Shown here piece by piece: positions 179 to 32,644 of a stretch of DNA of 39,658 nt. Under the pieces are notes generated by a model, which made no database searches, was not told the origin of the DNA, and worked only from the letters and a program-made list of their open reading frames with translations. The position numbers and the translations under genes are program-made. Numbering within the stretch: the first letter of the stretch is position 1; each line of letters opens with the position of its first letter. Source of the DNA: Bacillus sp. ISL-37 (GTDB lineage: Bacteria; Bacillota; Bacilli; Bacillales; Cytobacillaceae); assembly GCF_018613315.1 (NCBI RefSeq), contig NZ_JAGGQL010000037.1:1-39658 (forward strand), written 5' to 3'.

Positions 179-378
179 TTTTGATTGGCTCTTTTCTTAA
201 ACTTTGTTGCTATTGCATACAATATTGGATTGAATCAGCTGTTTTCCTTCGTAAAGTTGACGTTTCCTTATGAGAAAAGAGCAGGAAACTTAATACCGAC
301 CTGCAAAATGGGTATATATTACGTTAAAATCGGCTTTAGGATTTTAACAACAATCGTTACGAAAACAGCCTTTTTATT
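179..378 (+). mobile_element. MITE copy A (element 187-370) with 8-bp duplication
   Basis: This 184-bp element runs from GGCTCTTTTC (187) to GAAAACAGCC (370). Its two ends are imperfect inverted repeats (about 20 of 28 positions). Flanks TTTTGATT (179-186) and TTTTTATT (371-378) match at 7 of 8 positions. Inside are GTTAAAATC (323-331) and GATTTTAAC (340-348), a perfect 9-bp hairpin. It lies 11 bases beyond the stop codon of ydbT. The short open frames in it are not genes. It fills nearly all of the gap between the IS end and ydbT. Confidence 0.85.
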
Positions 379-381
379 TTC

Positions 382-1830
382 TTACTCAACTGTTTCATGC
401 GAGTACCAATGATACATCGTGTCAACATGCTTTTTCTCAAGGTCAATGACTTTGCCGCCAGCGCCGCCGTGTCCAGACTTGACAATCGCCTCGACGGTGG
501 CCAGCTTCTTTTTCCGCTGAAAAAAGCTTTCTTTGACGCTGAAAGACTGGACCTTATTTTTCCTCATATACACTGTGTTCTTGACAATATTGCGGTATCG
601 AAAGGTAAGCATCCCCTGGTCGAGACTCCAGCCTGCATCCTTATAATTAAGGTAAGACCATAATGCCGAGACTGGAAGCAGGAGCAGTGCCCCAAAGCCC
701 CAAGGTCTCAAAAACCAGATGGCCACAATGATGATCGGCAGCGTGAACAGCCAGCTCTTCAATAAATATCTGCTGTATGCCCGTTTTGGTGCGGGCAATA
801 TATTGACACGGAAGTGGTACTCCGTCAAATGAGGCTCAAGCAGGCCGGGGATCTTTCTTTTTTTCACGATCGGCAGGATAAGGACCTTGGAACTTTCCTG
901 GTCAAGCGCCGAGCCTCCTGCGCTTTCTACATATGCCGAAGCAAGCCCGAGCGGCTGCCTGATGAGGTTCTCACTGATTCGTACAGCCTGGATCCGGTTA
1001 AGCGGAATCGTAAACTGGCGTTTTTCCAGCAATCCACGTGTTATGACAAGATCATTATCCACTTTTCTCACGGTAAAATTAGCGTATTTCAGCATCGTGC
1101 CAAACAGCGCGATCATCCACGCAAGCAGAAACCCGAGAAAGACCACGACACTGATAAAAACAACACCGTTTTGGACAAAGTGCTCGACCCCATCAAAAAT
1201 TTGCTCATAAGGAATGAATTCTTCAAATTGGAAAACGAACGCAAACACCGCAGAAATGACAACACCAACTCCGCCTGATGTAGTCGCAAGCATCAATAAC
1301 TCTGAAACCGACATTTTATATAGAAGGTCATCGGATGATTCTGGCTCTTCTTCTCCTTGCAGTATCTGCCCCGACTTTTTGATGGATACCAGATAGTCAT
1401 GGATTGCTTGCGCATCCTGCTTTGTGATCGCCGTGAGGACCGCCTCGCCATCCTGCAGACCCATTCCCCCGGACCCGGCTGTCTCCACCTTCACCTTCAC
1501 AAGGCCGAACAGCCGCTGTAAAATCCCTTCTGACAAATCAAGGCTTTGGATCCGGTCGAACGGAATAAATCGCTTTTTCCTGACAATCAATCCGTATTCA
1601 ATTCGCAGTTCACCTTGCTCGATGCGATATGTAAATCTGTACCATGACAAAACTCCATAAACTAAAACCAACACTACAACACCAATCGAACCAAAGAAGT
1701 AAAACAGATCCCAATCCGTTCCCCTGCTCCCGAAAACGACGAAAATGAGGAAAGGGATGATCATTTCCTTCAGCTGGCGCAACGCATTGACGACAGCGGC
1801 GATCGGATGCAGCCTTTTCGGATCAGACAT
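382..1830 (-). CDS. ydbT: YdbT-like membrane protein with three bacterial PH (bPH_2) domains
   Basis: 482-residue membrane protein. Transmembrane pairs near residues 20-60, 180-240 and 370-405 alternate with three bPH_2 (DUF304) domains; recurring cores are LRIEYGLIVRKKRFIPFDRI, LVITRGLLEKRQFTIPLNRI and MLTFRYRNIVKNTVYMRKNK. In B. subtilis ydbST belongs to the SigW stress regulon and protects against antimicrobials of other bacilli; the biochemical role is unknown. The ATG at 1830 was chosen because AAGGGTGG sits 9 bases upstream; ATG 1836 and TTG 1851 are in-frame alternatives. The start overlaps the end of ydbS, so the two are translationally coupled. No TGAAAC/CGTA SigW promoter was found upstream of the pair. 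Confidence 0.85.
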   Translation of the reverse strand: MSDPKRLHPIAAVVNALRQLKEMIIPFLIFVVFGSRGTDWDLFYFFGSIGVVVLVLVYGVLSWYRFTYRIEQGELRIEYGLIVRKKRFIPFDRIQSLDLSEGILQRLFGLVKVKVETAGSGGMGLQDGEAVLTAITKQDAQAIHDYLVSIKKSGQILQGEEEPESSDDLLYKMSVSELLMLATTSGGVGVVISAVFAFVFQFEEFIPYEQIFDGVEHFVQNGVVFISVVVFLGFLLAWMIALFGTMLKYANFTVRKVDNDLVITRGLLEKRQFTIPLNRIQAVRISENLIRQPLGLASAYVESAGGSALDQESSKVLILPIVKKRKIPGLLEPHLTEYHFRVNILPAPKRAYSRYLLKSWLFTLPIIIVAIWFLRPWGFGALLLLPVSALWSYLNYKDAGWSLDQGMLTFRYRNIVKNTVYMRKNKVQSFSVKESFFQRKKKLATVEAIVKSGHGGAGGKVIDLEKKHVDTMYHWYSHETVE

Positions 1831-2305
1831 CTTCATCCGCCACCCTTGCAAGTCTTGAAATGGAAATCCTCAAATTTTCGGCTTCTTTCATATCAAGCGC
1901 AGGTATTTCATGGATGGTTGCAGCTGTCGAAACCGTCACCGTCGATAAACGGTATTTCCGCAGCAAAGGCCCCTGCTGTGTATCAACATGCTGGACTCTG
2001 ATCATAGGAATGAGCGTCCTTTTTATGATGAATACCCCGTATTGAAGTTCAATCTCCTGTTCCCGCACTTCATAGCGCCAGCGTTTCCAGCGCAAGGTCG
2101 GCAGTAACAAGATAAATAAATAGCTATATACAACAGCCACAGCTATGGCTGCAGCGATCATCCATTTAGGAAAATCAAAAAATATCGTAATGGCGATCAG
2201 ACCGCCCGCTAATACCCATACCACCAGGGAATGAAGGATTGCCGCAATTTTCCAGACAGTCAATGCCTGCTCGGAAATCCGCTTTTGCGGCTCAGAAATC
2301 GTCAT
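1823..2305 (-). CDS. ydbS: YdbS-like membrane protein with one bPH_2 domain
   Basis: 160 residues, the usual YdbS length. Two adjacent transmembrane helices (about residues 28-50 and 55-78) are followed by one bPH_2 domain with the core IELQYGVFIIKRTLIPMIRV and then VQHVDTQQGPLL. The start is the ATG at 2305 (MTISEP) because GGGAGGAAA stands seven bases before it; a longer frame to 2338 has no such site. The stop codon overlaps the start region of ydbT. In B. subtilis ydbS directly follows cshA; here uvsE and a repeat region lie between them, so the pair probably has its own promoter. Confidence 0.85.
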   Translation of the reverse strand: MTISEPQKRISEQALTVWKIAAILHSLVVWVLAGGLIAITIFFDFPKWMIAAAIAVAVVYSYLFILLLPTLRWKRWRYEVREQEIELQYGVFIIKRTLIPMIRVQHVDTQQGPLLRKYRLSTVTVSTAATIHEIPALDMKEAENLRISISRLARVADEDV

Positions 2306-2404
2306 AAAGTTTCCTCCCATTTTTCCAATTAATAGCACCTTCTAAGTATACAACAACAATCCGTAAGTATGGCACTAAATTGGGAGGAATATGAGAGCAC
2401 CCGA

Positions 2405-3370
2405 TTATTTTAATAGGAAGCTGCTGCCGTCAATGGCTTCTACTTCAGGCATTTGCTTTAGATCCTCAACCAGCTTGAAAAGGGCAAGATCCTTCTTTTT
2501 CGCTTCAATCATGCAGTGAATTTCTGAAACTGAACCTTTAATGCCGTTAAGGAAATCCTTGAACATGTCAGCATCGACATATTCGGCGTGCGCCCGAAAC
2601 TCTCTTTCCGAACGAGGACTCGAAATATGCATTTTCACTGGGAGCTTCGAGTGTTCCCATGTCCCAACAATTCTACCCCATTGTTCCTGCCAGTTTATAT
2701 CCTCATGATGGGCCAGGTGATGGTGATAATCGAAAACGAGCGGGATCCCAAGCTTTTCGCAAAGGTATAGCGTATCGTGGAGCGTGAAAGATGTATCATC
2801 ATTTTCGAGGATAATCATGTCTTGCAGCCTTGTTGAAATCAGTCCCCAGTTATGGATGAATTGCTCCAGTGCTTTTTCCCGGTTATCATAAACGCCCCCC
2901 ACATGGAGGACACATCGATGCTCGGGGTCGATTTCCATCCCCTTCAATAATGCATGATGCATCGCAAGCGTCTTGATTGAATTGTTCAACGTCTCAGTTT
3001 TCAACGTATTCAGCAGGACAAAATGATCCGGGTGAAAATCAACACGCATCGGATTTTCGTGTAAAAAATCCGCGATATCCTTTAAAGGTTCTTTTAACGC
3101 TCGCATATACTTCCAGTCTGAAAGCTCTTCATGATTGGCAAGAGGAATCAACCTCGAGCTCAGCCGAAAAAAGTGAATCTCGTTCGCTTTGCTATGCCTT
3201 AATAGACGCAGACAGTTTTCAAGGTTGGAGATCGCGATTCTCTCCAGCTTATTAACGGCCGCGTCCCTGTCTTTGATTCCCTGGAATTGCTTGAAAGTCA
3301 TCGTCTGTGACGGCGAAGCATTCTTCAGTTCCTCGCTCATCGCTACATAACCAAGCCTGACGATCGTCAT
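2405..3370 (-). CDS. uvsE: UV DNA damage endonuclease UvsE
   Basis: 321-residue TIM-barrel endonuclease of the UVDE family, which nicks DNA 5' to UV photoproducts (dimers, 6-4 products) and starts alternative excision repair. Family blocks seen in order: RLGYVAMSEELKNASPS at the N terminus, FFRLSSRLIPLANHE, VDFHPDHFVLLNT, LHVGGVYDNREKAL, MIILENDDTSFTLHDTL, LVFDYHHHLAHHE, KMHISSPRSEREFRAHAEYV and CMIEAKKKDLALFKL. The His, Asp and Glu residues in these blocks are the metal ligands. The ATG at 3370 is chosen; an in-frame GTG at 3379 is possible but would overlap the GGGGGTGG ribosome binding site. It is inserted between cshA and ydbST relative to the B. subtilis order. Confidence 0.9.
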   Translation of the reverse strand: MTIVRLGYVAMSEELKNASPSQTMTFKQFQGIKDRDAAVNKLERIAISNLENCLRLLRHSKANEIHFFRLSSRLIPLANHEELSDWKYMRALKEPLKDIADFLHENPMRVDFHPDHFVLLNTLKTETLNNSIKTLAMHHALLKGMEIDPEHRCVLHVGGVYDNREKALEQFIHNWGLISTRLQDMIILENDDTSFTLHDTLYLCEKLGIPLVFDYHHHLAHHEDINWQEQWGRIVGTWEHSKLPVKMHISSPRSEREFRAHAEYVDADMFKDFLNGIKGSVSEIHCMIEAKKKDLALFKLVEDLKQMPEVEAIDGSSFLLK

Positions 3371-3660
3371 TTCAGCCACCCCCGTTTTTTATTGGTAGTA
3401 TGCCCAAGTTCGAGGGAAGGAGACTGGCAAAATTACTGCTTATATGAGGTTGGTTGAAATAATGTGGAATGTGGTCGATAAAACGCAAAAAGTGGTTGAT
3501 ATATCTTGAAATGTGGTCGATATATTCCGAAATGTGGTCGATATATCTTAAAATGTGGTCTAAATCTCAGCAAGAGGTTCAGAATATACGTGGTTAGGCA
3601 GGATATTTTGGGTAAATCAACTTAATTTATATGATCATTCACGTTAAAGGTGCACATTTT
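3371..3660. other. Intergenic stretch upstream of uvsE
   Basis: No gene was seen between the uvsE start and MITE copy B. The stretch holds the 21-bp tandem array (3471-3575, listed separately); the rest is AT-rich sequence without recognisable motifs. Confidence 0.5.
3471..3575. repeat. 21-bp tandem array (five units)
   Basis: Units begin with GTGGTCGATA or a variant at 3471, 3492, 3513, 3534 and 3555, exactly 21 bases apart. The three central units read GTGG(T/C)(T/C)GATATAT plus a variable tail; the outer two are more diverged. Each central unit carries the GATATAT core. No coding frame or adjacent cas genes are present. Confidence 0.8.
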
Positions 3661-3859
3661 TAGACAAACGCTGTTTTCGTATAGATTGTTGTTAAAATCC
3701 TAAAGCCGATTTTAACGTAATAAAAAGCCATTTTGCAGCTCGGTACTAAGTTTGCATGCTCTTTTCTCATATAAAGTGTCAACTTTACGAAAAAAATAGG
3801 TCTTGAAATCCTATTTTGTATTCAAAAGCAACAAAGTTTGAGAAAAGAGCCTAGATAAA
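3661..3859 (-). mobile_element. MITE copy B (element 3669-3851) with 8-bp duplication
   Basis: 183-bp copy in the minus orientation: GCTGTTTTCG near 3670 and GAGAAAAGAGCC ending at 3851. Flanks TAGACAAA (3661-3668) and TAGATAAA (3852-3859) match at 7 of 8 positions. The right flank is part of the U-tract of the cshA terminator, so the element landed directly in that terminator tail. The internal hairpin GTTAAAATC/GATTTTAAC is retained. Confidence 0.85.
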
Positions 3860-3891
3860 AAACCCCCCGTTTAGTTAAAAACCGGGGGGTT
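3853..3891 (-). terminator. Intrinsic terminator of cshA
   Basis: Inverted repeat AACCCCCC (3861-3868) and GGGGGGTT (3884-3891). On the minus strand it is followed by TTTTTTAT. It lies ten bases past the cshA stop codon, and MITE copy B interrupts the DNA just beyond the U-tract. Confidence 0.9.
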
Positions 3892-3901
3892 GGTGTTTAT
3901 T

Positions 3902-5383
3902 TTAGCGTGATGATCTGGATTTGAAGCTGCCGCCTTCTCTGCTTCCGCCGCCGCCACCTGTGCGTTTTGTTCCAGAGCGTGGCTTGTAAGGCTTTTTATT
4001 GCGTCCATCGCTGCCTCTGTTATCGAATCTTTTGCGGTCTCCTTGAGGCTTTTTGTTTCTGTTTGGAAGAGGCTTTTCCTCAGTAAGCTTAACAGGAGTT
4101 GTATCAGGCTCTTTAGTCAGCATTTTCAATACGGAAGCAACAACTGTTTGAGCATCATGATTTTTCAATAGCTCATCTGCAGCCTGGCGGTAGTATTGAA
4201 GGTTATTTGACTCGATTGTTTGTGTAATCTTGTCAACAACTGCTCTTTGCTGGCCTTCAAGCGCTTGGTCCAAGGTTGGAGGAGTCATTTTTTCCATGCG
4301 GCGTTTTGTCGTTTTTTCCACTACATGAAGGTAAGAAGTCTCTCTGTGTGTAACAAACGTGATCGCCATACCCTCTTTACCTGCACGGCCAGTACGTCCG
4401 ATACGGTGTACATAGCTTTCAGGGTCTTGCGGGATATCGAAGTTGTAAACGTGCGTTACACCGGAAATATCAAGTCCACGAGCTGCCACATCTGTCGCAA
4501 CTAGCACGTCGATTGAACCTTCCTTGAACTTTCTTAAAACAGACATACGCTTCGCCTGCGTAAGGTCTCCGTGGATTCCTTCAGCAGTGTAGCCGCGCAG
4601 GTTCAATGCTTCAGCGAGCTCATCAACACGGCGCTTCGTGCGTCCGAAGATGATTGCTAATTCTGGAGATTGGATATCAAGAAGTCGTGTAAGAACATCG
4701 AACTTGTTCTTTTCCTGTACTTCAACATAGAATTGCTCAATCAAAGGAACTGTCATTTCCTTCGCTTTGACACGAACAACTTCCGGATCCTTCATGAAGC
4801 GCTCAGCGATCTTGCGGATCGGTCCTGGCATTGTTGCCGAGAACAATAATGTCTGGCGTTCGCTAGGGATTTTTGCAAGGATTGCTTCGATATCTTCGAT
4901 GAAGCCCATGTTCAGCATTTCATCAGCTTCGTCAAGGATTACAGTTTCGACAGTATCAAGACGGATTGTCTTTCTGTTGATATGGTCAAGAAGTCGTCCT
5001 GGCGTCCCGACGATGATGTGAGGCCCTTTTTTCAATGCACGGATCTGGCGGTTGATATCCTGGCCACCGTAGATTGCAAGAACGCCCAATCTCTTGCCAG
5101 CACCAATCTTGTATAGTTCCTCGGAAACCTGGATTGCCAATTCACGAGTTGGCGCGATGATGATTCCCTGGATGTTATGGTTTTCTTTCTTGATTTTTTC
5201 CACTAGAGGAATACCGAAAGCAGCAGTCTTACCAGTACCTGTCTGCGCCTGGCCAATCACGTCTTTATTCTCAAGGCTGATTGGAATCGTCTCTGCTTGA
5301 ATTGGAGTTGCTTCCTCAAAACCCATATTCTTTACAGCTTTTAATGTTGCGGGGCTAATGCCCATCTCTTGGAACATTGTCAA
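3902..5383 (-). CDS. cshA: DEAD-box ATP-dependent RNA helicase CshA
   Basis: 493-residue cytoplasmic RNA helicase; in B. subtilis CshA is the main helicase linked to the RNA degradosome and cold adaptation. Motifs in order: Q motif GFEEATPIQ, Walker [46 protein letters not shown] and HRIGRTGR. The C-terminal 60 residues are rich in Arg, Lys and Gly with a GGGGG run, a typical RNA-binding tail. The start is the TTG at 5383 with AAAGGAG 11 bases upstream; the next ATG (two codons in) is too far from that site. A long structured leader precedes it. It lies downstream of murF in the conserved Bacillus order, with the esterase between. Confidence 0.95.
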
Positions 5384-5708
5384 CTTTGCTCATTCTCCTT
5401 TATGTTCACATTTATCCCGCATCGGCAATAACCGATGCTTCGTTTATTTAAGTGGCTGTTTAAGGATCCAAACCATTTCTGATTCTGGTTAGTTTGTCGT
5501 ACCTTTACGGCAAAAGGTGTTCGCACCTTGTTTTTTAAGCAGGGCTGAATCAGCAATTACAACACGCTGAAGCACAGAACCTGAAATATTAGCAAAAAAA
5601 GACATTCTCCATCACGGGAGTATGTCCGCTTAAAGGATTTTCTCAGTTAGACACTCAATATTCATGATACCATCTTTAGGAAGGAAAAGCAATTTTTGAG
5701 GAATTGCT
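5384..5708 (-). other. Long structured leader region upstream of cshA
   Basis: About 300 bases without a gene. On the minus strand it contains, after the esterase terminator (5594-5626), a perfect AAGGTG-CGAA-CACCTT hairpin (5514-5529) and a perfect GCATCGG/CCGATGC hairpin (5419-5438) just upstream of the cshA ribosome binding site AAAGGAG. No T-box, riboswitch or open frame was recognised. It may be a regulatory 5' untranslated region. Confidence 0.4.
5594..5626 (-). terminator. Intrinsic terminator downstream of the esterase gene
   Basis: On the minus strand GACATACTCC and GGAGAATGTC pair with one mismatch and are followed by seven T residues (A-tract 5594-5600 on the plus strand). It ends the esterase transcript and separates it from cshA. 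Confidence 0.8.
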
Positions 5709-6419: not shown

Positions 6420-6528
6420 AACCAATCACCCATTAGTTTTTCTCGTATTTAATCTTTCCCCATTTTAAATCATTTAACCCAGAAATTCCTCGATAATGCC
6501 TTTTGAACTATAGAACTTTAAACTCAAG

Positions 6529-6554: not shown

Positions 6555-6565
6555 TTTGTAGGGAA

Positions 6566-12992: not shown

Positions 12993-13291
12993 TTTTGTAT
13001 TGAGCTTGACCCAGGATTGTGTACAGGAGAAAGAGCTTCTATGGAACCTTTTCGGTACTTGAAACCAATTTGGGGCTTATAGAACTTTTCTATAGGACCT
13101 TTTCGAGGGTTTTAATCTCATTCGGGCTTATAGAATCTTTCTATAGGACCTTTTCGGCTGTTGAAACCTCATTCGGGCTTATAGAACTTTTCTATAGGAC
13201 CTTTTCGGCGATTCCTACCTCATTTAAGGCTTACATGTAACCTTTTCTGGGGTTTCAGCTGCATCCCGGCATAAAGAGATCAATTACAAAC
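12993..13291. other. Intergenic region downstream of the MFS gene
   Basis: It contains the 51-bp tandem array (13040-13245, listed separately) and unremarkable flanks. An open frame of 73 codons at 13019 exists only because 51 is a multiple of three; it lacks a ribosome binding site. Confidence 0.6.
13040..13245. repeat. 51-bp tandem array (three full units and a decayed fourth)
   Basis: Units start TATGGAACC (13040), TATAGGACC (13091), TATAGGACC (13142) and TATAGGACC (13193), exactly 51 bases apart. Each unit junction forms the hairpin TATAGAA-CTT-TTCTATA or a close variant. The middle of the unit varies, while CTTTTCG and CGGGCTTATAGAA are kept. No cas genes, no spacers and no functional frame. 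Confidence 0.85.
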
Positions 13292-17469: not shown

Positions 17470-17690
17470 AGACATAGAGCCTGTCGGCACCTCCCTATCC
17501 TCGTAGGTTTGTTGGTGCAATGGACAGGCAGGTCTCCTGGCTCATGGTCAATGCTCGCTGCGCCTTCCCATACATTTGTACAGTGGCCGTTGCAGATTGC
17601 TCCCATTTACAGTGGCGGGACCGCGTTGGATTTTCACCAACTTCCCTATTAAGTCTTGTTTAAAAAGACACCCGTTCATTTCGATATGTA
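17470..17690 (-). ncRNA. Cobalamin (B12) riboswitch
   Basis: On the minus strand the conserved order is seen: AATAGGGAAGTTGGTGAAAA, then TCC, GCGGTCCCGCCACTGTAA (B12 box core GCCACTG), GGGAGC, a second GCCACTG, GGGAAGG, and CATGAGCCAGGAGACCTGCC. This is the adenosylcobalamin riboswitch consensus. A terminator follows, then btuFCD. High cobalamin should stop transcription before btuF. The outer boundaries are approximate. Confidence 0.95.
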
Positions 17691-17757: not shown

Positions 17758-17957
17758 TTATTGGGGGCTCTTTTCTCAAACTTTGTTGCTATTGACTACA
17801 AAATAGGATTGTATTACCTAAGTTTCTTTACAAAATTTAACGCTTATAATGAGAAAAGAGCTTGCAAACTTAGTACCGACTTACAAAATGACTTTTATCA
17901 CGTTAAAATCGGCTTTAGGATTTTAACAACAATCTTTACGAAAACAGCTTTATTGGG
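17758..17957 (+). mobile_element. MITE copy C (element 17766-17949) with 8-bp duplication
   Basis: Begins GGCTCTTTTC (17766) and ends GAAAACAGCT (17949). Perfect flanking duplication TTATTGGG at 17758-17765 and 17950-17957; an extra T makes it look like 9 bp. The right duplication holds the stop codon of the neighbouring minus-strand gene, so the insertion hit the stop and the duplication preserved it. The internal 9-bp hairpin is present. Confidence 0.9.
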
Positions 17958-18726
17958 CAAGCAGACTCCATTCTTTCACTTTTTTATCAAAGACAAGCCT
18001 GCCATCCGGATTGCTGCGGCTTGCTTCTTTATATTCATCATGCATGTCATCCATGTTGGCAAAATCTCCGATAATCCAAATCGGTATTTCAATTCTGTTG
18101 CGGTTTTGCTGGATGTTTTTCAGCGAAAAAACCGCCCCTTCCTTCATCGCCGGTGTCAACGATTTCAAAATCTCCTTGCTGACGGCTGGGTAGGACTTCT
18201 TTTTCCTGATCCCGAGCAGTGTTTTTTCCGGTTTCATTTCCCCGAGCTTGCCAGAAAGGACCGTTCCGAGCATCCGGAAAAAATCATTGAAGTTGCGGTA
18301 ATATATTTTGTTGAACCAGCCATCCTCATGGGAAAGGTAAACAAAGCGATTATCGAGCTGGTTATAAAATGGCTGCTTCAAATGGTGCTTGATATGGCCT
18401 AGATAAAGAAGTTCGGCAATCTCCTGGGCCGTCAGCACATTCAGTGCTTCCACTTCCTCAAAATCAATCCAGCAAAAATCCCCGTATGCATGGACATTTG
18501 CGGCGACCAACTTTTCGACGCTGTCTTCAGGTACATATTCAAATAAGGTATGTCTATTGAACTCACCATCCTCATAGCGATGCTTCAACAGCAGCAGATG
18601 GTTAAGCGAATCAGACAAGACCCGCGCAAATTCATGGAATTCCATACCATGCGAGAGCACGTACTGATCCCGCTCGTTCAAATGGACATATAGTAAATCC
18701 CTGCTATAAGGATGGTTCTTTTTCAA
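17950..18726 (-). CDS. Conserved Bacillaceae protein of unknown function
   Basis: 258 residues, soluble, no signal peptide or transmembrane helix. It is rich in aromatic and charged residues: YSRDLLYVHLNERDQYVLSH, HAYGDFCWIDFEEVEALN, ELLYLGHIKHHLKQPFYNQL, IYYRNFNDFFRMLG, IEIPIWIIGDFANMDDM. From memory close relatives exist in the B. cereus group under the name oxalate:formate antiporter, which cannot be right for a protein without membrane helices. The start is the TTG at 18726 because GGGAGGT stands seven bases upstream; the frame extends to 18819 without support. Its stop lies in the MITE C target duplication. No operon partner. Confidence 0.8.
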   Translation of the reverse strand: MKKNHPYSRDLLYVHLNERDQYVLSHGMEFHEFARVLSDSLNHLLLLKHRYEDGEFNRHTLFEYVPEDSVEKLVAANVHAYGDFCWIDFEEVEALNVLTAQEIAELLYLGHIKHHLKQPFYNQLDNRFVYLSHEDGWFNKIYYRNFNDFFRMLGTVLSGKLGEMKPEKTLLGIRKKKSYPAVSKEILKSLTPAMKEGAVFSLKNIQQNRNRIEIPIWIIGDFANMDDMHDEYKEASRSNPDGRLVFDKKVKEWSLLAQ

Positions 18727-19181
18727 TGGCACAACCTCCCGGAAAATTCTCAGCTGCATGATTGCCAGCGACACTCTGACCCCGTACAAATAACACTTCT
18801 TCCATTCTAACAAAAACACATGAAAATATCTTAATCTGACTCTTCAAAAACATAATTATTATCGTACTAACACGTTAAAAGAATCCCTTTTACAAACGCT
18901 GTTTTCGTAAAGATTGCTGTTAGTTTTGCAGGTCGGTATTAAGTTTGCATGCTCTTTTTTCATAAGAAGCGTCAACTTTACGAAGGAATATAGGTAATTC
19001 ACTCCAATCTTGTATTCAATAGCAACAAAGTATGAGAAAAGAGCCTTTTCAAAAGAAACTATTCCCTTTTTTCATTCGTCTATTACTTGCATAGGAAAAT
19101 GTTACCTGAGCAGGGATTGTAAGGATAATTCAACTCTGCTAGCATAATATTGTAAAAACGGATTGAGACAGGGTGTAGCAA
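18727..19181. other. Divergent intergenic region with MITE copy D
   Basis: It separates the minus-strand gene of unknown function from the RodA-like gene. Apart from MITE D (18889-19053) only AT-rich sequence was seen. Promoters for both genes must lie here, but none was read with confidence; the insertion adds about 157 bp between them. Confidence 0.5.
18889..19053 (-). mobile_element. MITE copy D (element 18897-19045, internally deleted)
   Basis: 149-bp copy in minus orientation, from CGCTGTTTTCG (18897) to GAGAAAAGAGCC (19045). Flanks TTTACAAA (18889-18896) and TTTTCAAA (19046-19053) match at 7 of 8. Compared with the 183-bp copies it lacks the segment holding the GTTAAAATC/GATTTTAAC hairpin. 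It is the only copy not at a gene 3' end. Confidence 0.8.
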
Positions 19182-23221: not shown

Positions 23222-24946
23222 TTGAACAATAATTTTTACAATGGCTGGGACAGCATTCTTGGCAAACTGCCCAATGTGCTGATCGCGCTTGCAGTCCTGC
23301 TCGTCGGATGGCTTGTCGCAAAATTAATAGAAAAAGCAGTTTACAAAGGGCTTCAGAAAACAAGCCTTGATAACAAGCTTTTTTCGAATGTGAACAATAA
23401 CAAGTATTCCGCTGAAAAAATCATCAGCAAGATTGTCTATATTTTAATTCTAGTATTTGTCTTCATCATGTTCCTGAATATCTTAGATTTATATGTTTTG
23501 ACGGAGCCGCTCATCGGAATGTTCTCCACTATTGCCGCAGCGATTCCTAATATCCTGAAAGCAGGATTGATTCTATTATTTGCCTGGTTGATTGCTTCTG
23601 GCTTGAAATTCCTGATCCAAAAAGGCGGCAAGACGCTAGGTGTCCATGAAAAGTTAAGCAAGTATAAGCTTACGGACGACAACCAGCAGACGACGAATGC
23701 AGTTGATAAAGTCGCGAACATCGTTTTCTATCTTGTCTTGCTGATGGCATTGCCAGCTGTATTGTCCGCACTGAACCTGCACGGCGTATCAGAGCCTTTT
23801 GAAAACATGATCGCAGGAATCCTGTCCTTCATTCCTAAACTTTTCGCGGCAGCGCTGATTCTTTTAGTCGGTTACTTTGTTGCTAAAATCGTTCGTGATA
23901 TCCTGACGAACTTTTTACAAAGCATTGGCACTGAAACATTAGTCCAGCGTTTCGGACTTTCACGCTTATTTGAAGGCACTAGCCTTTCACGCGTGATCGG
24001 CACTGTTGCTTTCGTCTTGATATTAATCCCGACAGTCATCGCCGCTCTCGAGCGACTTGATGTCGAAGGAATATCTGAACCAGCCATCGCAATGTTGAAT
24101 GACATTCTGACGATGATTCCAAATATCGTCGTGGCCATCATTCTAGTCATGATTGGTCTGTGGCTTGGAAAATGGCTGAAGAAATTCACTGCTGATTTAT
24201 TAAGAAGAATTGGTTTTGACTCATATTTTAAAGGAGTAACTGTAGGTAGCGCTGCCAAGCGTCCTAACTCATTAAGCTTATCGGAAATTGTCGGCTATAT
24301 TGTCCAGGTCATCGTCGTCCTGCTATTTGTAGCAGAAGCATTGAATGTAGTAAACCTTGATTTCTTCGTCGACCTGGCACGGGGTGTTATTGCTTATCTG
24401 CCACATGTAATTGCCGCGATCGTCATCCTTGGTGTCGGCCTATGGCTCGGCGGGCTTGCAAAGAAAGTACTCAGCAGCATCCTGCAAGGGGACTCTTCCA
24501 ATGTGCTGGCAACTGTTGCAAAATATGCGATTATCACCATTGCTGTCTTCATGGCCCTTGACCAGCTTGGAGTAGCACCAGCAATCGTGAATGCAGCTTT
24601 CATCCTGACACTTGGAGGACTGGCACTCGCATTCGGCTTAGCATTCGGTCTAGGCGGCAAAAACTTCGCATCGAAATACCTGACCAAGTTCGATGAGAAA
24701 ATCGAAAAAACCAGCATTGATCACGCCGCGGTCCAACAGCAGAAAATGAAAAAGAACAACCCGGTCAACCCGAACCCTGCTACACCACCAAACTTGAATA
24801 ACCTAAATCAGAACCCTGGAACTGGTCCAAACTTAAACAATCCGAACCAAAACCCTGGAACTGGTCCAAACTTGAACAATCCGAACCAGAACAGAAACAA
24901 TAACCCTATCGATCCTCATAACGATAACAACCCGATGAATCCATAA
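23222..24946 (+). CDS. Mechanosensitive-channel-like protein with repeated TM_helix units
   Basis: 574-residue membrane protein. Five copies of a conserved TM_helix segment are visible: NVLIALAVLLVGWLVAKLIE, NILKAGLILLFAWLIASGLK, KLFAAALILLVGYFVAKIVR, NIVVAIILVMIGLWLGKWLK and HVIAAIVILGVGLWLGGLAK, each followed by a short amphipathic helix. The C-terminal core GVAPAIVNAAFILTLGGLAL then AFGLAFGLGGK resembles the MscS pore helix and its end. A ~60-residue Asn/Pro/Gly-rich tail holds a 13-residue tandem repeat. The start is the TTG at 23222 with GAGGAG eight bases upstream. Single gene with a bidirectional terminator. Channel activity is inferred from the family. Confidence 0.8.
   Translation: MNNNFYNGWDSILGKLPNVLIALAVLLVGWLVAKLIEKAVYKGLQKTSLDNKLFSNVNNNKYSAEKIISKIVYILILVFVFIMFLNILDLYVLTEPLIGMFSTIAAAIPNILKAGLILLFAWLIASGLKFLIQKGGKTLGVHEKLSKYKLTDDNQQTTNAVDKVANIVFYLVLLMALPAVLSALNLHGVSEPFENMIAGILSFIPKLFAAALILLVGYFVAKIVRDILTNFLQSIGTETLVQRFGLSRLFEGTSLSRVIGTVAFVLILIPTVIAALERLDVEGISEPAIAMLNDILTMIPNIVVAIILVMIGLWLGKWLKKFTADLLRRIGFDSYFKGVTVGSAAKRPNSLSLSEIVGYIVQVIVVLLFVAEALNVVNLDFFVDLARGVIAYLPHVIAAIVILGVGLWLGGLAKKVLSSILQGDSSNVLATVAKYAIITIAVFMALDQLGVAPAIVNAAFILTLGGLALAFGLAFGLGGKNFASKYLTKFDEKIEKTSIDHAAVQQQKMKKNNPVNPNPATPPNLNNLNQNPGTGPNLNNPNQNPGTGPNLNNPNQNRNNNPIDPHNDNNPMNP
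24806..24883 (+). repeat. 39-bp coding tandem repeat in the channel-like gene
   Basis: Two 39-bp units (24806-24844 and 24845-24883) nearly identical in DNA, encoding NQNPGTGPNLNNP twice, with a shorter degenerate start before and NQN after. It is the Asn/Pro-rich cytoplasmic tail of the channel-like protein and a likely site of copy-number variation. Confidence 0.85.
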
Positions 24947-27358: not shown

Positions 27359-27648
27359 ACCAGAAAGGCGGAGGCGACTGCTTAACTCCGACAAACGCTG
27401 GAGGGCCTGACAGTGAAGTCGCTCTTTGACTTCATTGGCAGGACCGAAATTGAAATGTATAGCCGACTGTCCAGAAACGCAGAAACTGGAGACTCCGACA
27501 AAGAAGCGCTTTTTGCTTCTGCCGGCGGAGTTGAAGTTTCGGAGTTTCAAGGAGGCGACACTAGACAGCGTCTCGAGGAGTTAGGAGCCGCAGCTAGACA
27601 ACCAGAAAGGCGGAGGCGACTGCTTAACTCCGACAAGCTTCTGGTAAA
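27359..27648. repeat. GC-rich structured non-coding element with 36-bp direct repeats
   Basis: A 36-bp sequence beginning ACCAGAAAGGCGGAGGCGAC occurs perfectly at 27359-27394 and 27601-27636. Between them are strong hairpins: CCTGAC-AGTGAAGTC with GACTTCATT-GGCAGG, and AGAAGC/GCTTCT inside CTCCG/CGGAG. The 3' end pairs CCAGAA with TTCTGG. Base composition is unlike the AT-rich surroundings. The 80-codon open frame across it has no homology that I recognise and looks accidental. From memory, sequences of this kind recur in some Bacillaceae genomes. Confidence 0.7.
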
Positions 27649-27692
27649 CTTATGAACCTATCCATAAAAAAAGAAGACCGTTATCTGCCTTC

Positions 27693-27852
27693 TCTTTCAT
27701 TTACAATCTCGTTTTCTAGCTTCCGTTTGTTCGGCAGGTTCTCCTATCGGACACTTTCTCTCGCTTTCGCCTTCTGTTTGGCCGATAGAGCCTTTCTATC
27801 GGTCATTTTTCTCCGCTTTCGCCCTCTGTTTGTCCGATAGAGCCCTTCTACA
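27693..27852. repeat. 52-bp tandem array (two clear units plus diverged edges)
   Basis: Full units begin at TATCGG 27745 and TATCGG 27797, 52 bases apart, with a decayed unit before (from about 27693) and the start of another after 27849. Junctions form CCGATAGA-GCCTT-TCTATCGG hairpins (8-bp stem). The array lies just past the stop codon of the kinase gene (minus) and may act as its 3' structure, since no ordinary terminator is seen there. Confidence 0.8.
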
Positions 27853-27866
27853 AGAAACGTATTCCA

Positions 27867-29102
27867 TTACTCACATGGCAGCAGAATCGTGAATGTGGTG
27901 CCTTTTCCTTCTGCACTTTCGACATTGATTCGGCCTCTCATTCTTTGGATAATATCAAAGGAAATCATCATGCCGAGGCCTGTGCCTTTTTCCTTCGTGG
28001 AGTAATAAGGGTGACCGAGTCTGTCGAGCTGCTCTTTATTCATGCCGACTCCTTCATCCCGGAACTGGATTCTTACATTATTCTTGTCGACCTTGGCGAT
28101 GATGTAGATGCTTCCGCCAGAAGGCATCGCTTCGATGCCATTTTTCAGGATATTGATAAAAACTTGTCTGATTTCATGGGCATCACCTTTGATGGAAAGG
28201 TTCTTATCGATCGCCTCCACTAATTCTGTATTGGCGAGATGCGAATAGGATCTCATGAAGTCAATCGTTTCTTTTAAAAGTTCGCTCAGGTTAATTTTTG
28301 CCATGCTGCCTGTATTTGGTTTTGCCAGCGAGAGGAAATTGTCAATGATTGTCTGGGTACGATCCAGCTCCTGAAGGGATATCGTGATGAAGAGATTCTG
28401 GTTATCATTCAGATTCTTTTCTCCTTGAAGAACCTGCATGAAGCCTCTGATTGTGGTCATTGGGTTCCGGATTTCATGGGCAACCGAGGCTGCTAGCTGG
28501 CTGATTGCTGAAAATTTCTCAGCTTTGTGAAGCTCATGCATCAATTTAAGCTGCAAGTTGGTCATTTCAATGATATAAATGGTTACCGATAGCGCAACGA
28601 AAGAGACGAGTGAAAATACAAGCAAATACAGATAGTCCTCCGCTTTGCCGGCGTTGATCATTGCCGCGAGTCTTGTCGTTGTAATCAGGCCGTACACAAA
28701 AAGGCCGAGCGCAATTTTTCTGTTAACAGTTGTATTTTTATATAATTTTTCAATCGAAAAAAATAGAATTAATATGACCATATAATTGACGACCGTGACA
28801 GGGAGCTTATCAATCCCCACAAATCCCTGCAATAACAACAGGACAGCCACAAGCAAAAAGCTATCAGTCCTGCTTAGATAAAAAAAGGCAATGAAGATTG
28901 GAATCAGCTTCAAGTCGAATTCCATGCCACCATGGAATCTTACAGGCAGCGCCATTGTCATCAATAGCGCAGCTAAAATGGCCATTTTAAAGACTTGTTT
29001 CTTATATACCGAACGCTTCTGCATCCATAGAAAGTTATACATGAAGCCGAGCGATAATATAATTGAAAAATGCAGGATCAAATCTTTTATAAACTCTACC
29101 AT
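27867..29102 (-). CDS. Sporulation-type membrane histidine kinase (KinB-like)
   Basis: 411 residues. The N-terminal ~190 residues form about six transmembrane helices of the 5TM/LytS-like kind with little outside the membrane. The kinase core follows: H-box AASVAHEIRNPMTTIRGFMQ (phosphorylated His near residue 207), N-box NILKNGIEAMPSGG, G1 FRDEGVGM and G2 GTGLGMMIS. No response regulator gene is adjacent, so it is an orphan kinase, as are the kinases feeding the Spo0F-Spo0A phosphorelay; KinB has this same layout. The signal is unknown. The ATG is preceded by GGGGGA. The 52-bp repeat array lies directly downstream. Confidence 0.85.
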   Translation of the reverse strand: MVEFIKDLILHFSIILSLGFMYNFLWMQKRSVYKKQVFKMAILAALLMTMALPVRFHGGMEFDLKLIPIFIAFFYLSRTDSFLLVAVLLLLQGFVGIDKLPVTVVNYMVILILFFSIEKLYKNTTVNRKIALGLFVYGLITTTRLAAMINAGKAEDYLYLLVFSLVSFVALSVTIYIIEMTNLQLKLMHELHKAEKFSAISQLAASVAHEIRNPMTTIRGFMQVLQGEKNLNDNQNLFITISLQELDRTQTIIDNFLSLAKPNTGSMAKINLSELLKETIDFMRSYSHLANTELVEAIDKNLSIKGDAHEIRQVFINILKNGIEAMPSGGSIYIIAKVDKNNVRIQFRDEGVGMNKEQLDRLGHPYYSTKEKGTGLGMMISFDIIQRMRGRINVESAEGKGTTFTILLPCE

Positions 29103-29343
29103 TGTATCCCCCGGGTTCTCCAGAATATGAATATATGCCTACATAATTATTATCTACTCCCCATATGGATACTTCAATGGAAAATTCAGATATTTTTGAT
29201 AAAATTGCATAATTTTGTCTATTTCAAAGGGATGCTATCGTATTTTGGGAGTGTACCTTCCCGGTCTCAGGTATTTAGGGGGAACTAAATGGGGCGAAAT
29301 GTTGTGCAGGCAAACAACAAAGTTTGTAATCCGAAAAACTTTT
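29103..29343. other. Intergenic region upstream of the kinase
   Basis: AT-rich. The kinase promoter must lie here but was not identified. No small gene or repeat was recognised before the promoter at 29344. Confidence 0.4.
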
Positions 29344-29374
29344 TTTACAGTGTCTGTAAAACTTATGCTATAAT
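29344..29374 (+). promoter_or_regulatory. Extended -10 promoter on the plus strand
   Basis: TGCTATAAT (29366-29374) is a perfect extended -10. TTTACA (29344-29349, 19-bp spacer) or TTACAG (18 bp) is a usable -35. The transcript would start near 29381. No plus-strand gene lies upstream or close downstream. Confidence 0.6.
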
Positions 29375-29380
29375 AAGAAC

Positions 29381-29431
29381 AACCATTGCTTTACCGCATT
29401 AAACCCCACTCAATTGGAGTGGGGTTTTTTT
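29381..29431 (+). ncRNA. Candidate ~50-nt small RNA (promoter to terminator)
   Basis: The promoter at 29344-29374 is followed by a single-stranded stretch and the terminator hairpin CCCCACTC/GAGTGGGG (29404-29424) with a T7 run. This predicts a stable RNA of about 50 nt. No open frame with a ribosome binding site is inside it. It could also be the attenuated leader of a gene lost or displaced by MITE E, which was inserted in the T-run. Confidence 0.4.
29404..29431 (+). terminator. Intrinsic terminator of the candidate small RNA
   Basis: CCCCACTC (29404-29411), loop AATTG, GAGTGGGG (29417-29424), then seven T residues. The right end of the T-run is the target duplication of MITE E. Confidence 0.9.
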
Positions 29432-29626
29432 ATTAGGCTCTTTTCTCAAACTTTGTTGCTATTGCATACAATATTGGATTGAATAGCTATTTTCCTTCGT
29501 AAAGTTGACGTTTCCTTTTGGAAAAGAGCATGCAAACTTCATACCGACCTGCAAACTGGGTATATATTACGTTAAAATCGGCTTTAGGATTTTAACAACA
29601 ATCGTTACGAAAACAGCCTTTTATTA
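29428..29626 (+). mobile_element. MITE copy E (element 29436-29618) with 8-bp duplication
   Basis: 183 bp from GGCTCTTTTC to GAAAACAGCC, with perfect duplication TTTTATTA at 29428-29435 and 29619-29626. It is very similar to copy A over its full length. It is inserted in the U-tract of the terminator at 29404-29431. The 62-codon frame inside is not a gene. Confidence 0.92.
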
Positions 29627-29647
29627 TTATTCAAATATATATGAACA

Positions 29648-29681
29648 TAAAAAAACAAGCTCTGATGAATCAGAGCTTGTT
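29648..29681 (-). terminator. Intrinsic terminator of the cold-shock gene
   Basis: CAAGCTCTG (29656-29664) and CAGAGCTTG (29671-29679), followed on the minus strand by TTTTTTTATG. Confidence 0.92.
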
Positions 29682-29700
29682 TGTATGGGCTAATCCGTTA

Positions 29701-29901
29701 TTATAGTTTTGTAACGTTAGCTGCTTGTGGTCCACGAGCGCCTTGCTCAACGTCGAAAGAAACTTCTTGGCCTTCTTCAAGAGTCTTGAAGCCTTCGCCT
29801 TGGATAGCTGAGAAGTGTACGAATACGTCTTCTCCACCTTCACGTTCGATGAATCCGAAACCTTTTTCTGCGTTAAACCATTTTACTTTACCGTTTTCCA
29901 T
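29701..29901 (-). CDS. CspA-family cold-shock protein
   Basis: 66-residue single cold-shock domain, the normal Csp length. RNP1 is KGFGFIE and RNP2 is [25 protein letters not shown] opens the protein and [11 protein letters not shown] closes it. Csp proteins bind single-stranded RNA and DNA and act as RNA chaperones. It is closest to the B. subtilis CspB/C/D group, but I cannot choose among them. CTAGGAGG stands nine bases before the ATG. A promoter (30023-30051) and a ~115-nt leader precede it, and a strong terminator follows. Confidence 0.95.
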
Positions 29902-29916
29902 TTTTGTTGCCTCCTA

Positions 29917-29931
29917 GTGTGATATCCACAC
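29917..29931 (-). promoter_or_regulatory. Hairpin just upstream of the csp ribosome binding site
   Basis: GTGTG (29917-29921) and CACAC (29927-29931) around GATAT lie three bases upstream of the csp Shine-Dalgarno sequence. The motif GGATATCAC occurs twice in the leader. A temperature-sensitive structure is possible, but the stem is short. Confidence 0.35.
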
Positions 29932-30022
29932 AATTTGTTACTATTCTTGTCTCAGTGATATCCAGGCGAATCAAGCAGTGCATGTTCTTTCCTTGCATAC
30001 CGAACAAAAATAATTCTTCCTA

Positions 30023-30051
30023 AGAATAACAGAATTGAAAAGATAGTGCAA
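30023..30051 (-). promoter_or_regulatory. Sigma-A promoter of the cold-shock gene
   Basis: On the minus strand TTGCAC (30046-30051), a 17-bp spacer and TATTCT (30023-30028). The start of transcription would be near 30016, giving a leader of about 115 nt, a usual feature of cold-shock genes. Confidence 0.6.
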
Positions 30052-30139
30052 GTATTTAGGAATTTTCCAAAAACAGGGTTTTATAAAAAATCATTCGAAA
30101 GCCCATACTGGATTAATAAAAGTGAATCAGAAAATGTGG

Positions 30140-30145
30140 TATAAT
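30140..30145 (+). promoter_or_regulatory. -10 box of the 57-residue gene
   Basis: TGGTATAAT (30137-30145) is an extended -10 on the plus strand. No good -35 is visible. It is divergent from the csp promoter and lies 27 bases before the small gene. Confidence 0.55.
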
Positions 30146-30172
30146 TAAAAGAACATGAAAGGGCGTGGCTAA

Positions 30173-30346
30173 TTGAAAAGCGCAAGCAACATTTATAAAA
30201 CAGGTCAATCGGTCAATATCAAGGAAACCGGCGAAACAGTGACAATCATGAAATCCCAATACGTAAAAAACATGAAAAGATATTCATACACTGTGAAGGA
30301 ATACCCAAGCACATTTTACTTTGAGGAAGAACTAGAGAGTAATTAA
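30173..30346 (+). CDS. Small conserved-looking protein of 57 residues, function unknown
   Basis: TTG start at 30173 with AAAGGG nine bases before it and an extended -10 upstream; stop at 30344-30346 and a strong terminator right after. The protein opens KSASNIYKTGQSVNIKETGE, then TVTIMKSQYVKNMKRYSYTV and an acidic end (YFEEELESN). Alternation of charged and beta-branched residues suggests a small beta-rich cytoplasmic domain. No family is recognised. The promoter, ribosome binding site and terminator make a complete transcription unit, so it is probably real. Confidence 0.7.
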   Translation: MKSASNIYKTGQSVNIKETGETVTIMKSQYVKNMKRYSYTVKEYPSTFYFEEELESN

Positions 30347-30356
30347 TGACCCCACT

Positions 30357-30389
30357 AAAAAGCGTGCCACAGCTGAGCACGCTTTTTTT
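30357..30389. terminator. Bidirectional terminator between the small gene and the MMPL gene
   Basis: AAAAAGCGTGC and GCACGCTTTTTTT pair around CACAGCTGA. It has T-runs in both directions and serves the converging genes. Confidence 0.9.
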
Positions 30390-30393
30390 GTTT

Positions 30394-32547
30394 CTATTTT
30401 ACTTTTCGAGGCCAAAGGCTGTATTTCCCCAGCTTGACCATAATCGCTGGTACTAGAATTGTACGAATCAGGAATGTATCAATCAAGACACCGATCGCGA
30501 CAGTGAAACCGAACATGAACAGCTCCATGATCGGCTGTGTGATCAGGACTGCGAATGTTGCCGCAAGAATGATCCCCGCGGATGAAATGACTCCACCTGT
30601 ATGGGATAAACCGAGACTGATCGCCTCTTTAATCGAATGGTTCCTTGCTTCCTCTTTTATCCTCGAAATGAGCATGATGTTATAGTCCACTCCAAGTGCC
30701 ACCAGGAAGATGAACGTGTATAACGGAATCCGGTAACTGATTTCAGAATAGCCGAAGAACTGGTCAAAGATGAAGAAGCCGGCCCCTAGCGCTGTAAAAT
30801 AAGACAGGATGATCGTTGCCATCATATAGATGGGAGCAATCAGGGATTTTGTCTGCATGCCAAGCAGGACCATGATGACAACGGTCGTTAACAGGACGAC
30901 CACCCATGTATCACGATCATTCACTTCGCGGACTTCTGCCTGCTTTGCAGTTTCGCCAGCATAGTAGAAGTTTGCACCTTCAAGGCCAGCATCTTGCTTC
31001 AGCTCTCCTCCCTGAATACGGATTTCATTCAACTGATCGAATGTCTTTTGGTCATAAGGATTGCCGGCAAAAACGATCTCCAGCTTTGCTGCATTTTTAT
31101 CTTTAGAAAAATAAGAATCAGCATGCAGGGCGAAATCAGGATTCACCTGTTCAACCCCATCCATATCAAGGATCTCACTCCTTAAGGCTTGCAGCTCTTC
31201 TTTCCCTATTTCACTGTCACTTTCAACGATCAGGGTTGTCGGTGCCAGCTCACCCGGCGAGAAGTTCTTCTCCAGGATCTCATATCCCTGCCTTGACTGG
31301 ATGTCATCAGGGAAAGATTTGATAAGATTGAATGAGTACGTAATATTGACCGTATTCAAGGCAATGGCCACTAGCGGGATAAGCACGAAGACTCCGCTCT
31401 TTACTGGATTTTTCACTACCATATTTCCGAGTCTGGACCAAATGGCCACTTTAGCAGGTGCCTCGTCGTCCACTTTCGGAAGTGACGGCCAGAACGCTTT
31501 CCTGCCAAATAGCACATACAAAGCCGGCAGCAACGTCAACCCGCCAAGGAGAATCAACACTAATGCAATCGAGAAAACCGGCGCAAAATTGCGGTACGGC
31601 TCATAAATGGCAGCGAACAACACAAGCATCGCTGCCAGCACGGTCCCGCCGCTGAAGAGAATCGGTTCAGTGACTTCCTCCATCGCCCGCTTCATCGCGG
31701 TAAATTTGTTTTCTACCTGTTTCAGTTCTTCTTTGAAACGCGCCACAATGAACAGCGAATAATCAGTCAGTGCCGCAAATAACAGGATTGACATGATCGA
31801 GGTCGACTGCGCCTCGATCTTCATCCCTGCAGAGCCAAATATTCCAATACTTTTATTGACCACTTCATAAACAAGTCCTGCTCCCAATAATGGGACCAGC
31901 GCCAACAGCGGCGAACGGTAAATCAGGATTAACAGGATAAAGATCAGTCCGATTGTACCTAGCAAGAGCACGATATCCGCCCGGGCGAATATGCCGATCA
32001 TATCGGCGACAATCCCGGCTGGACCGGTGATCGCCAGCTTGACCTCCTCCTGTCCTTTCAACTCTTTTTTGGCAAGCTGCCCAATCTTTTTAATAGTGTC
32101 ATTGATTGTGCTGCGTTCGAGATTTTCTTTCAGTGATACTGGCAAAATGAGTGTCGTATTGTTTTCTGATAGAAACGTTGCTTTTGCCTGGGGTGGCATC
32201 TGATGAAACGGCACCACAACCTTTACACCCTCTAGCTCCGCCTCTATCAGCTTTTTGCTGACCTGGTCAATGGTCGCAAAGTCGGTCTCGGTGAATTCCC
32301 CCTTTTTATTAAAAACGAGCAGTGCGGGAATCCCATTGTCTTCAGGAAAATACTCTTTGATTTTTTCATCTGCTTTTAACGAAACGGAATCCTCAGGAAG
32401 ACCCGACTCATTGACGCTTGTCGCATAGTCACTCGCACTTGGGGCAAGCCAGCCCATCAATAATGCAGCAAGGACCCAGATGGCCACGATTCCTTTCGAG
32501 CCTTTTTGGCTGCCTGAAAAAGCCGTTAATTTCCTAACCCACTTCAT
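30394..32547 (-). CDS. MMPL/RND-family transporter
   Basis: 717 residues with the RND layout: one helix (about 20-38), a large extracellular loop, helices 2-6, a second helix after a linker (about 375), a second extracellular loop and helices 8-12. MMPL marks are seen in both halves: ALTDYSLFIVARFKEEL and ALGVDYNIMLISRIKEEA contain the conserved Asp-Tyr proton-relay pair. Such proteins export lipids, surfactants, drugs or (in mycobacteria) bind haem. GGGGGAGAGG precedes the ATG. It lies 83 bp downstream of the small haem-oxidase-like gene on the same strand with only MITE F and no clear terminator between, so co-transcription from the HssR-like promoter is possible. Confidence 0.85.
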   Translation of the reverse strand: MKWVRKLTAFSGSQKGSKGIVAIWVLAALLMGWLAPSASDYATSVNESGLPEDSVSLKADEKIKEYFPEDNGIPALLVFNKKGEFTETDFATIDQVSKKLIEAELEGVKVVVPFHQMPPQAKATFLSENNTTLILPVSLKENLERSTINDTIKKIGQLAKKELKGQEEVKLAITGPAGIVADMIGIFARADIVLLLGTIGLIFILLILIYRSPLLALVPLLGAGLVYEVVNKSIGIFGSAGMKIEAQSTSIMSILLFAALTDYSLFIVARFKEELKQVENKFTAMKRAMEEVTEPILFSGGTVLAAMLVLFAAIYEPYRNFAPVFSIALVLILLGGLTLLPALYVLFGRKAFWPSLPKVDDEAPAKVAIWSRLGNMVVKNPVKSGVFVLIPLVAIALNTVNITYSFNLIKSFPDDIQSRQGYEILEKNFSPGELAPTTLIVESDSEIGKEELQALRSEILDMDGVEQVNPDFALHADSYFSKDKNAAKLEIVFAGNPYDQKTFDQLNEIRIQGGELKQDAGLEGANFYYAGETAKQAEVREVNDRDTWVVVLLTTVVIMVLLGMQTKSLIAPIYMMATIILSYFTALGAGFFIFDQFFGYSEISYRIPLYTFIFLVALGVDYNIMLISRIKEEARNHSIKEAISLGLSHTGGVISSAGIILAATFAVLITQPIMELFMFGFTVAIGVLIDTFLIRTILVPAIMVKLGKYSLWPRKVK

Positions 32548-32574
32548 TCTTCCCTCTCCCCCTCTTTAACGTCT

Positions 32575-32644
32575 TTCGATAAGGCTCTTTTCTCAAACTT
32601 TGTTGCTATTTAACAACAATCTTTACGAAATCAGCCTTCGATAA
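32575..32644 (+). mobile_element. MITE copy F (54-bp deletion derivative, 32583-32636)
   Basis: Only the two ends remain: GGCTCTTTTCTCAAACTTTG then TTGCTATT joined to TAACAACAATCTTTACGAAA and TCAGCC. Perfect duplication TTCGATAA at 32575-32582 and 32637-32644. The right end supplies the last codon (GGC) and stop (TGA) of the minus-strand gene next to it. Confidence 0.92.

Follow-up and report, generated by a model that had tools for sequence, protein, structure and literature searches.

We looked at a family of short repeats in Bacillus sp. ISL-37, six copies of which lie on contig NZ_JAGGQL010000037.1 (RefSeq assembly GCF_018613315.1), whose whole length of 39,658 nucleotides is called the window below. 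An original prediction, made from the letters of the window alone, had described the repeats as miniature inverted-repeat transposable elements (MITEs) flanked by 8-bp target duplications and had proposed an ISL3-type transposase as their mobiliser. All six copies were present where predicted (Table 1; copies and sites are named below by their first position), and their flanking 8-mers are identical at three copies and alike at seven of eight positions at the other three, as had been described. The inverted ends are real and imperfect, the left and right consensus ends being alike at 18 of the first 24 positions. A perfect 9-bp internal hairpin (GTTAAAATC/GATTTTAAC) was seen in the full-length copies and is lost from the 149-bp and 54-bp copies. 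The 187 and 29436 copies are 95% identical, and the peptide NFVAIAYNIG can be read in one frame of the former. At the 17766 copy, the TAA stop of a minus-strand open reading frame (ORF; 17950-18819) falls within the right-hand 8-mer.

Table 1. MITE copies and the adjoining terminator-like hairpin in the window.
Feature	Position	Strand	Flanking 8-mers and remarks
MITE copy, 184 bp	187..370	+	TTTTGATT/TTTTTATT, 7/8 alike
MITE copy, 183 bp	3669..3851	-	TAGACAAA/TAGATAAA, 7/8 alike; empty site in relative G014
MITE copy, 184 bp	17766..17949	+	TTATTGGG on both sides, identical
MITE copy, 149 bp, internal deletion	18897..19045	-	TTTACAAA/TTTTCAAA, 7/8 alike; hairpin lost
Terminator-like hairpin	29401..29435	+	stem 29401-29427; T-tract enters target 8-mer of 29436 copy; consensus match
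MITE copy, 183 bp	29436..29618	+	TTTTATTA on both sides, identical
Internal-deletion derivative, 54 bp	32583..32636	+	TTCGATAA on both sides, identical

The family is far larger than these six copies. In the host draft assembly (4.74 Mb, 62 contigs), a search allowing up to three mismatches gave 106 genome-wide matches to the left-end 24-mer and none to the reversed control; 100 of these matches were listed, and the other six were not drawn from that listing. Among the copies fetched, 89 had both ends paired, and removal of one internal mispairing left at least 88 distinct copies of 54-192 bp, too short for a transposase, 73 of them measuring 178-188 bp. Their median identity to their own consensus was 91%. 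A further 35 unpaired end matches, some of which are second-strand views of paired copies, stood outside the duplication counts. When the 8-mers flanking the 88 copies were compared, 42 pairs were identical, 28 had one mismatch, 11 had two and seven had four to six, at least some of these seven being one-base register shifts of the assumed end. Shuffled flanks gave on average 1.0 identical pair, with a maximum of five in 1000 shufflings, and up to one mismatch was found at 70 of the 88 copies where random re-pairing gave 4.5. The duplication has a fixed length of 8 bp, perfect repeats of 7 bp being seen at 3/88 copies and of 9 bp at 2/88. The perfect target 8-mers were 91% A+T, and the number of mismatches between 8-mers did not correlate with the divergence of a copy from the consensus (Spearman -0.13, p = 0.28).

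Orthologous stretches from 19 of the 20 other genomes of the host's genus were compared with the window, and where the host has two 8-mers, relatives showed unbroken sequence over a single one, sometimes substituted. Only the host has the 18897 site filled; all 11 relatives scored there were empty (with a one-base offset in one of them). The 29436 site was empty in the five relatives scored (with alignment slips of 0-3 bases) and the 3669 site in one. At the 32583 site, G008 has an exact empty site and G014 keeps a 24-bp remnant with the same 8-mer, next to the 54-bp derivative of the host. The 17766 site was filled in eight genus genomes, host included, empty in ten and ambiguous in G019. For the 187 site a possible empty orthologue was seen in G009 only, with a left flank of just 21 bases. 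Empty sites carrying a single 8-mer were found in at least one orthologue at five of the six window sites. Two of the checks that the original prediction had proposed, duplications at further copies and empty sites in related genomes, came out in its favour, and the repeats are a true MITE family.

At the 17766 site, the same 8-mer holds three element types in eight genomes, with 94-99% identity within types and 80-88% between them, and on both trees genomes with the element lie scattered among genomes without it; several nodes of these trees are weak (24 and 33 being the lowest support values). Any or several of repeated insertion, gene conversion, allele exchange and precise loss may have shaped this history. 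A single old insertion, with its interior replaced by gene conversion and precisely lost in several lineages, is a serious possibility that we lean slightly against. It is consistent with the interspersion and with the 96% identical element held by G008 and G009, which are not sisters on the trees, but three element types at one 8-mer fit repeated insertion into a hot spot equally well, and the weak nodes also count against it. The many filled and empty sites form a useful natural data set on the gain, loss and re-use of insertion sites. The Rfam scan of the window returned two elements only, a cobalamin riboswitch (RF00174, 126 bits; 17510-17690, minus strand) near this re-used site, and a cspA thermoregulator match (RF01766, 94.8 bits; 29651-30031, minus strand) adjoining the 29436 copy.

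A plasmid search with the MITE returned an element of 1303 bp from a plasmid of Priestia flexa. It contains a broken transposase and has an 8-bp duplication with one mismatch and a 3' end identical to the MITE right end (24/24). One piece of this transposase matched DDE_Tnp_IS1595 (E = 1e-10), and its N-terminal piece had matches in 73 of 193 family-level genomes, belonging to 16 of 25 genera; the host was not among these 73. For 30 fetched transposase loci, we looked for an 8-bp repeat and inverted ends spanning the transposase without supplying the MITE motif. MITE-type ends were recovered around the transposase in 13 loci, 11 of them with identical 8-mers, one of which (AAAAAAAA) is a run of A only and carries little weight. 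Loci L246, L252 and L253 gave related ends of GGCTCTGTTA or AGCTATGTTA type, and no ends were recovered in 14 loci. The 13 insertion sequences (IS) and the Priestia flexa element were then compared with the MITE over the first 24 positions. The MITE right end agreed with the IS 5' end at 18-22 positions and with the IS 3' end at 19-24, while for the MITE left end the agreement was 18-22 positions with the IS 3' end and 17-19 with the 5' end. In the 13 IS, the transposase starts near an end reading GGCTG (or CGCTG, GGCTA), and the far (3') end reads GGCTC in six and GGCTG (once CGCTG) in seven. The transposase of G186, a genome that holds both the MITE and a close relative of the transposase, matched NCBIfam NF033547 IS1595 (E = 3e-63) and Pfam PF12762 (E = 5e-18). 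For the proposed partner transposases, NF033547, NF050000 and PF12762 scored above cut-off, and the zinc ribbon PF12760 scored below the Pfam cut-off. The partner elements show the 8-bp duplication, the GG-terminal ends and the zinc-binding N-terminus with a DDE transposase expected of an IS1595-family driver. The MITE, too short for a transposase, is classed as a rider and not as a member of the family.

Some of these loci hold other features. At L224 (2506-2787, minus strand) and L229 (2553-2990, minus strand), an extra small ORF stands beside the IS1595-type transposase; the products, of 93 and 145 aa, are unlike each other, and that of L229 looks lipoprotein-like by eye. On the Paenibacillus polymyxa plasmid pSC2 (L169:3407-4029), about 620 bp with a transposase fragment lie between MITE-type ends with no clear 8-bp duplication.

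ISL3 elements also make 8-bp duplications, and their ends resemble GGCTCTT, the first seven bases of the MITE left end; the sequence GGCTCTTCGCCA was moreover found in the ISL3 locus L094. Beyond this likeness the two differ. The ISL3 transposase (PF01610) gave no match in the host and was present in 3 of the 21 genus genomes. Three of four ISL3 loci yielded end candidates, which matched the MITE ends at 2-11 of 24 positions (the IS1595 elements match at 17-24), and the fourth yielded none; a looser scan of the four added one stray end-like match with seven mismatches (L091). Against the IS1595 model, the transposase that lies between MITE-like ends scored 213 bits; against the ISL3 model it scored 19 bits, where the cut-off is 180. 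Mobilisation by an ISL3-family transposase, as originally predicted, is on these grounds very improbable, and we rejected it. The accompanying expectation that a transposase gene bounded by the same ends would exist was borne out by IS1595-family elements elsewhere, but not by any intact one in the host or the 21 genus genomes.

Judging from the ends and the duplications, the MITE copies were very probably mobilised in trans, as non-autonomous elements, by an IS1595-family transposase. Several points weigh against this reading. No intact cognate IS was found in the host or the 21 genus genomes. In 11 of 14 cases, the IS 3' end resembles the MITE right end more closely than the left, and the likeness of the MITE's own two ends (18/24) means that the lower end scores carry little weight alone. 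Beyond the ends (about position 28), the MITE and the 18 IS compared by blastn-short have in common words of at most 14 bases. The host assembly, as a draft of 62 contigs in which no IS1595 transposase was found, also means that an IS could sit in a gap. Since sharing beyond the ends is limited to such short words, the MITE is not a simple internal deletion of any IS compared, and this origin was rejected. A correspondence of the MITE left and right ends with the IS 3' and 5' ends was weakened by the split of the IS 3' ends between GGCTC and GGCTG and by the 11 of 14 cases just given; the left end was the better match to the IS 3' end only for L227, L229 and L243.

Within the genus, PF12762 was detected in 5 of 21 genomes. 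The cognate IS1595 subgroup was seen there only as two broken relics, one in G003 and one in G013, whose matched parts share 68-74% identity with the G186 protein. G011 holds three unbroken IS copies of another subgroup with perfect 8-bp duplications, and G012 an IS copy that contains one stop and has similar ends. No matching ends were found around the two unbroken PF12762 genes of G017. An IS1595-type transposase would recognise ends of the GGCT(C/G)TTTTC-N9-TGTTG-like type and join the MITE into an AT-rich 8-bp target, which would then be duplicated; the insertions gather in T-tracts of terminator-like hairpins. Because the driver appears to be missing, the copies in the host are probably stranded and decaying. 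The IS1595 reading would correct the driver assignment for a repeat family of about a hundred copies in one genome.

To look at the insertion sites, we used those with at most one 8-mer mismatch, 155 in total and 71 in the host, decayed copies being left outside. Some of the 155 sites are orthologous and non-independent, which the host-only set avoids. Hairpins were called as consensus matches and are terminator-like in that sense. Most host sites (61/71) lay outside genes. For 30 of the 71 host insertions, the T-tract of a terminator-like hairpin starts no more than 22 nt away, against 6.7 expected (p = 4e-13), a context-weighted expectation drawn from AT-rich positions of the same loci. In the window, one copy in six, that at 29436, adjoins such a hairpin. 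This clustering might reflect survival only, with insertions downstream of genes being tolerated and the targets being just AT-rich. Such an explanation agrees with the 32 of 71 host sites that lie only 3' of genes, where little harm is expected, and with the lean towards T-tracts of control positions having the same 8-mers. We nevertheless consider it unlikely. Within the 3'-only class, 16 of 32 sites still adjoin a terminator-like hairpin, against 12.5% of 990 AT-rich controls (p = 6e-7), and when the exact 8-mer was matched over all species, the count was 63 of 152 sites against 18 expected (permutation maximum 32 in 5000; three sites had no matched controls and were left out). Under a stricter hairpin rule, with three short-flank sites left out of the distance profile, site density was 4.7 times that of the control at 4-14 nt past the T-tract start, 3.6 times at 14-24 nt and 1.4 times at 24-40 nt, with no sites at 40-60 nt. 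We infer that the enrichment comes mainly from target choice and not from survival.

Site density also rose 2.3-2.6 times on the opposite side of the hairpin, in keeping with two-way terminators, and the left and right ends faced the hairpin in 41 and 26 cases, a difference that is not significant (p = 0.09). Six of 19 IS copies also adjoin a terminator-like hairpin, in a count that used a somewhat wider limit and had no matched control. Literature titles and abstract openings on terminators and insertion sequences contained, among the matches listed, none reporting terminator targeting by IS1595. If true, insertion beside terminators would explain the tolerance of the genome for so many copies and could alter the ending of transcription between genes.

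We did not find the interior of the MITE in any of the 18 IS used for comparison. In an alignment of 39 other-genus and eight host copies (47 rows), a stem joining positions 2-13 with 86-97 was kept, with standard pairs in 554 of 564 cells, as was the hairpin joining 138-146 with 155-163 (417 of 422 cells). Pair 12-87 was C-G in 21 rows and T-A in 21, and two hairpin pairs show changes of both partners, in two rows each. Such pair counts depend on shared ancestry and may go back to a small number of events, which counts against reading the interior as a conserved paired structure. The RNAalifold covariation term was slightly unfavourable (+0.33 and +0.05) when computed on 41 rows, six with poorly placed right ends being left out; the pair counts given above include all 47 rows and bear out those made on the 41. 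Among 118 copies, mostly from the genus, in which the rest of the stem is kept, position 12 was paired C-G in 101, unpaired or G-T in 17 and T-A in none.

The inner strand of the first stem carries an inverted copy of left-end positions 2-11, matching at 9-10 of 10 positions in 127 of the 139 copies of A-type and 9 of the 11 of B-type, a level that shuffled interiors never reached (at most 8/10). Position 11 is T with an inner A in 110 of 118 copies and G with an inner C in six, and the G-C cases have a B-type left end. Our leading guess is that this interior acts as a second transposase site or a fold. It is improbable that the repeats are retained mainly for a host function, as a regulatory RNA or DNA structure, and not as selfish elements. 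Two internal stems conserved across genera, with some paired changes, would suit a host function, as would the mostly full-length match of other-genus copies at about 71-79% identity. Presence nevertheless differs between related species at all five resolved sites, single-copy RNA folding is weak (z = -1.5 and -2.3), the alignment-wide covariation is not favourable, and the pairing may reflect a second transposase site or hairpin-templated repair.

Putting target choice and interior together, we tentatively suggest, while judging the whole more likely wrong than right, a terminator-seeking MITE. IS1595-type machinery would select the T-tract where the hairpin of an intrinsic terminator ends; the inner inverted left-end copy, changing in step with the end, and the 9-bp hairpin would form an extra transposase site or a transposition-aiding fold; and this structured interior would let the MITE persist in most genera of the bacterial family even without a driver. 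What most deserves specialist attention is the terminator preference and the paired interior, the latter as a concrete handle on why some MITEs outlast and out-copy their parent elements.

The family reaches well beyond one genus. By DNA similarity, matches were detected in 102 of 193 family-level genomes and 17 of 25 genera, including 19 of the 21 genomes of the host's genus; those of lower strength (E near 1e-4) may cover the ends alone. An exact 32-base right-hand stretch gave 73 matches, in Mesobacillus, Bacillus sp. ISL strains, Robertmurraya yapensis, Cytobacillus oceanisediminis and others. Of 40 copies examined from other genera, 39 were bounded, with lengths of 178-189 bp and mostly 71-79% identity to the host consensus, and 19 of these had identical 8-mers, a count biased towards identity because the score used to place the ends included the 8-mer. 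Four sequences titled Chryseobacterium sp. ISL-80 (L337, L349, L350 and L351) carry this Bacillaceae MITE, and their label is probably wrong. A second MITE subfamily, with a GGCTCTTTTCGTAAAC-like left end, was seen as pairs of 66-203 bp at L155, L158, L187, L190 and L198 and at the further loci L207, L209, L212, L214 and L215; its left-end pattern has matches in 14 of the 21 genus genomes, although at one mismatch it picks up some A-type copies as well. No match to the MITE was found in phages, and two scans of viral contigs with the exact end patterns returned no stretches. Titles and abstract openings on MITEs with ISL3, Bacillaceae or IS1595 included, among the matches listed, none describing this family. 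Separately, the window holds tandem arrays of 52-bp and 51-bp units (39462-39658 and 13037-13224) and others at 3468-3560, 24788-24892 and 27720-27850.

Compared with known systems, the MITE is closest at its ends to an IS1595 subgroup with GGCTGTTTTC/GGCT(C/G)TTTTC ends and an ISXO2-like transposase, with which it shares ends of about 24 bp (17-24/24), the terminal GG and a mostly AT-rich 8-bp duplication. It differs from this subgroup in its length of about 183 bp, the lack of a transposase and a conserved interior that was not seen in the 18 IS compared. The 8-bp duplication, GG-terminal ends and zinc-binding N-terminus with DDE transposase belong to the definition of the IS1595 family (PMC8101967). 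Another member, ISApl4, is described as having A/T-rich 8-bp direct repeats and 39 copies in one genome; unlike the MITE, it is autonomous, 712 bp long and bounded by GGGGCTGTACTAGA ends (PMC12561309). Bacterial MITEs in general are described in a review as short, with inverted ends, target duplications and high copy number, and mostly outside genes (PMC10969869), and the host family is alike in all five traits (61/71 sites for the last). Relative to that description, it differs in its spread over 17 of 25 genera, its inner inverted end copy and the centring of its insertions on terminator-like hairpins (PMC10969869). The element type is already known; what is new is the wide range, the inner inverted copy and the clustering at terminator-like hairpins.

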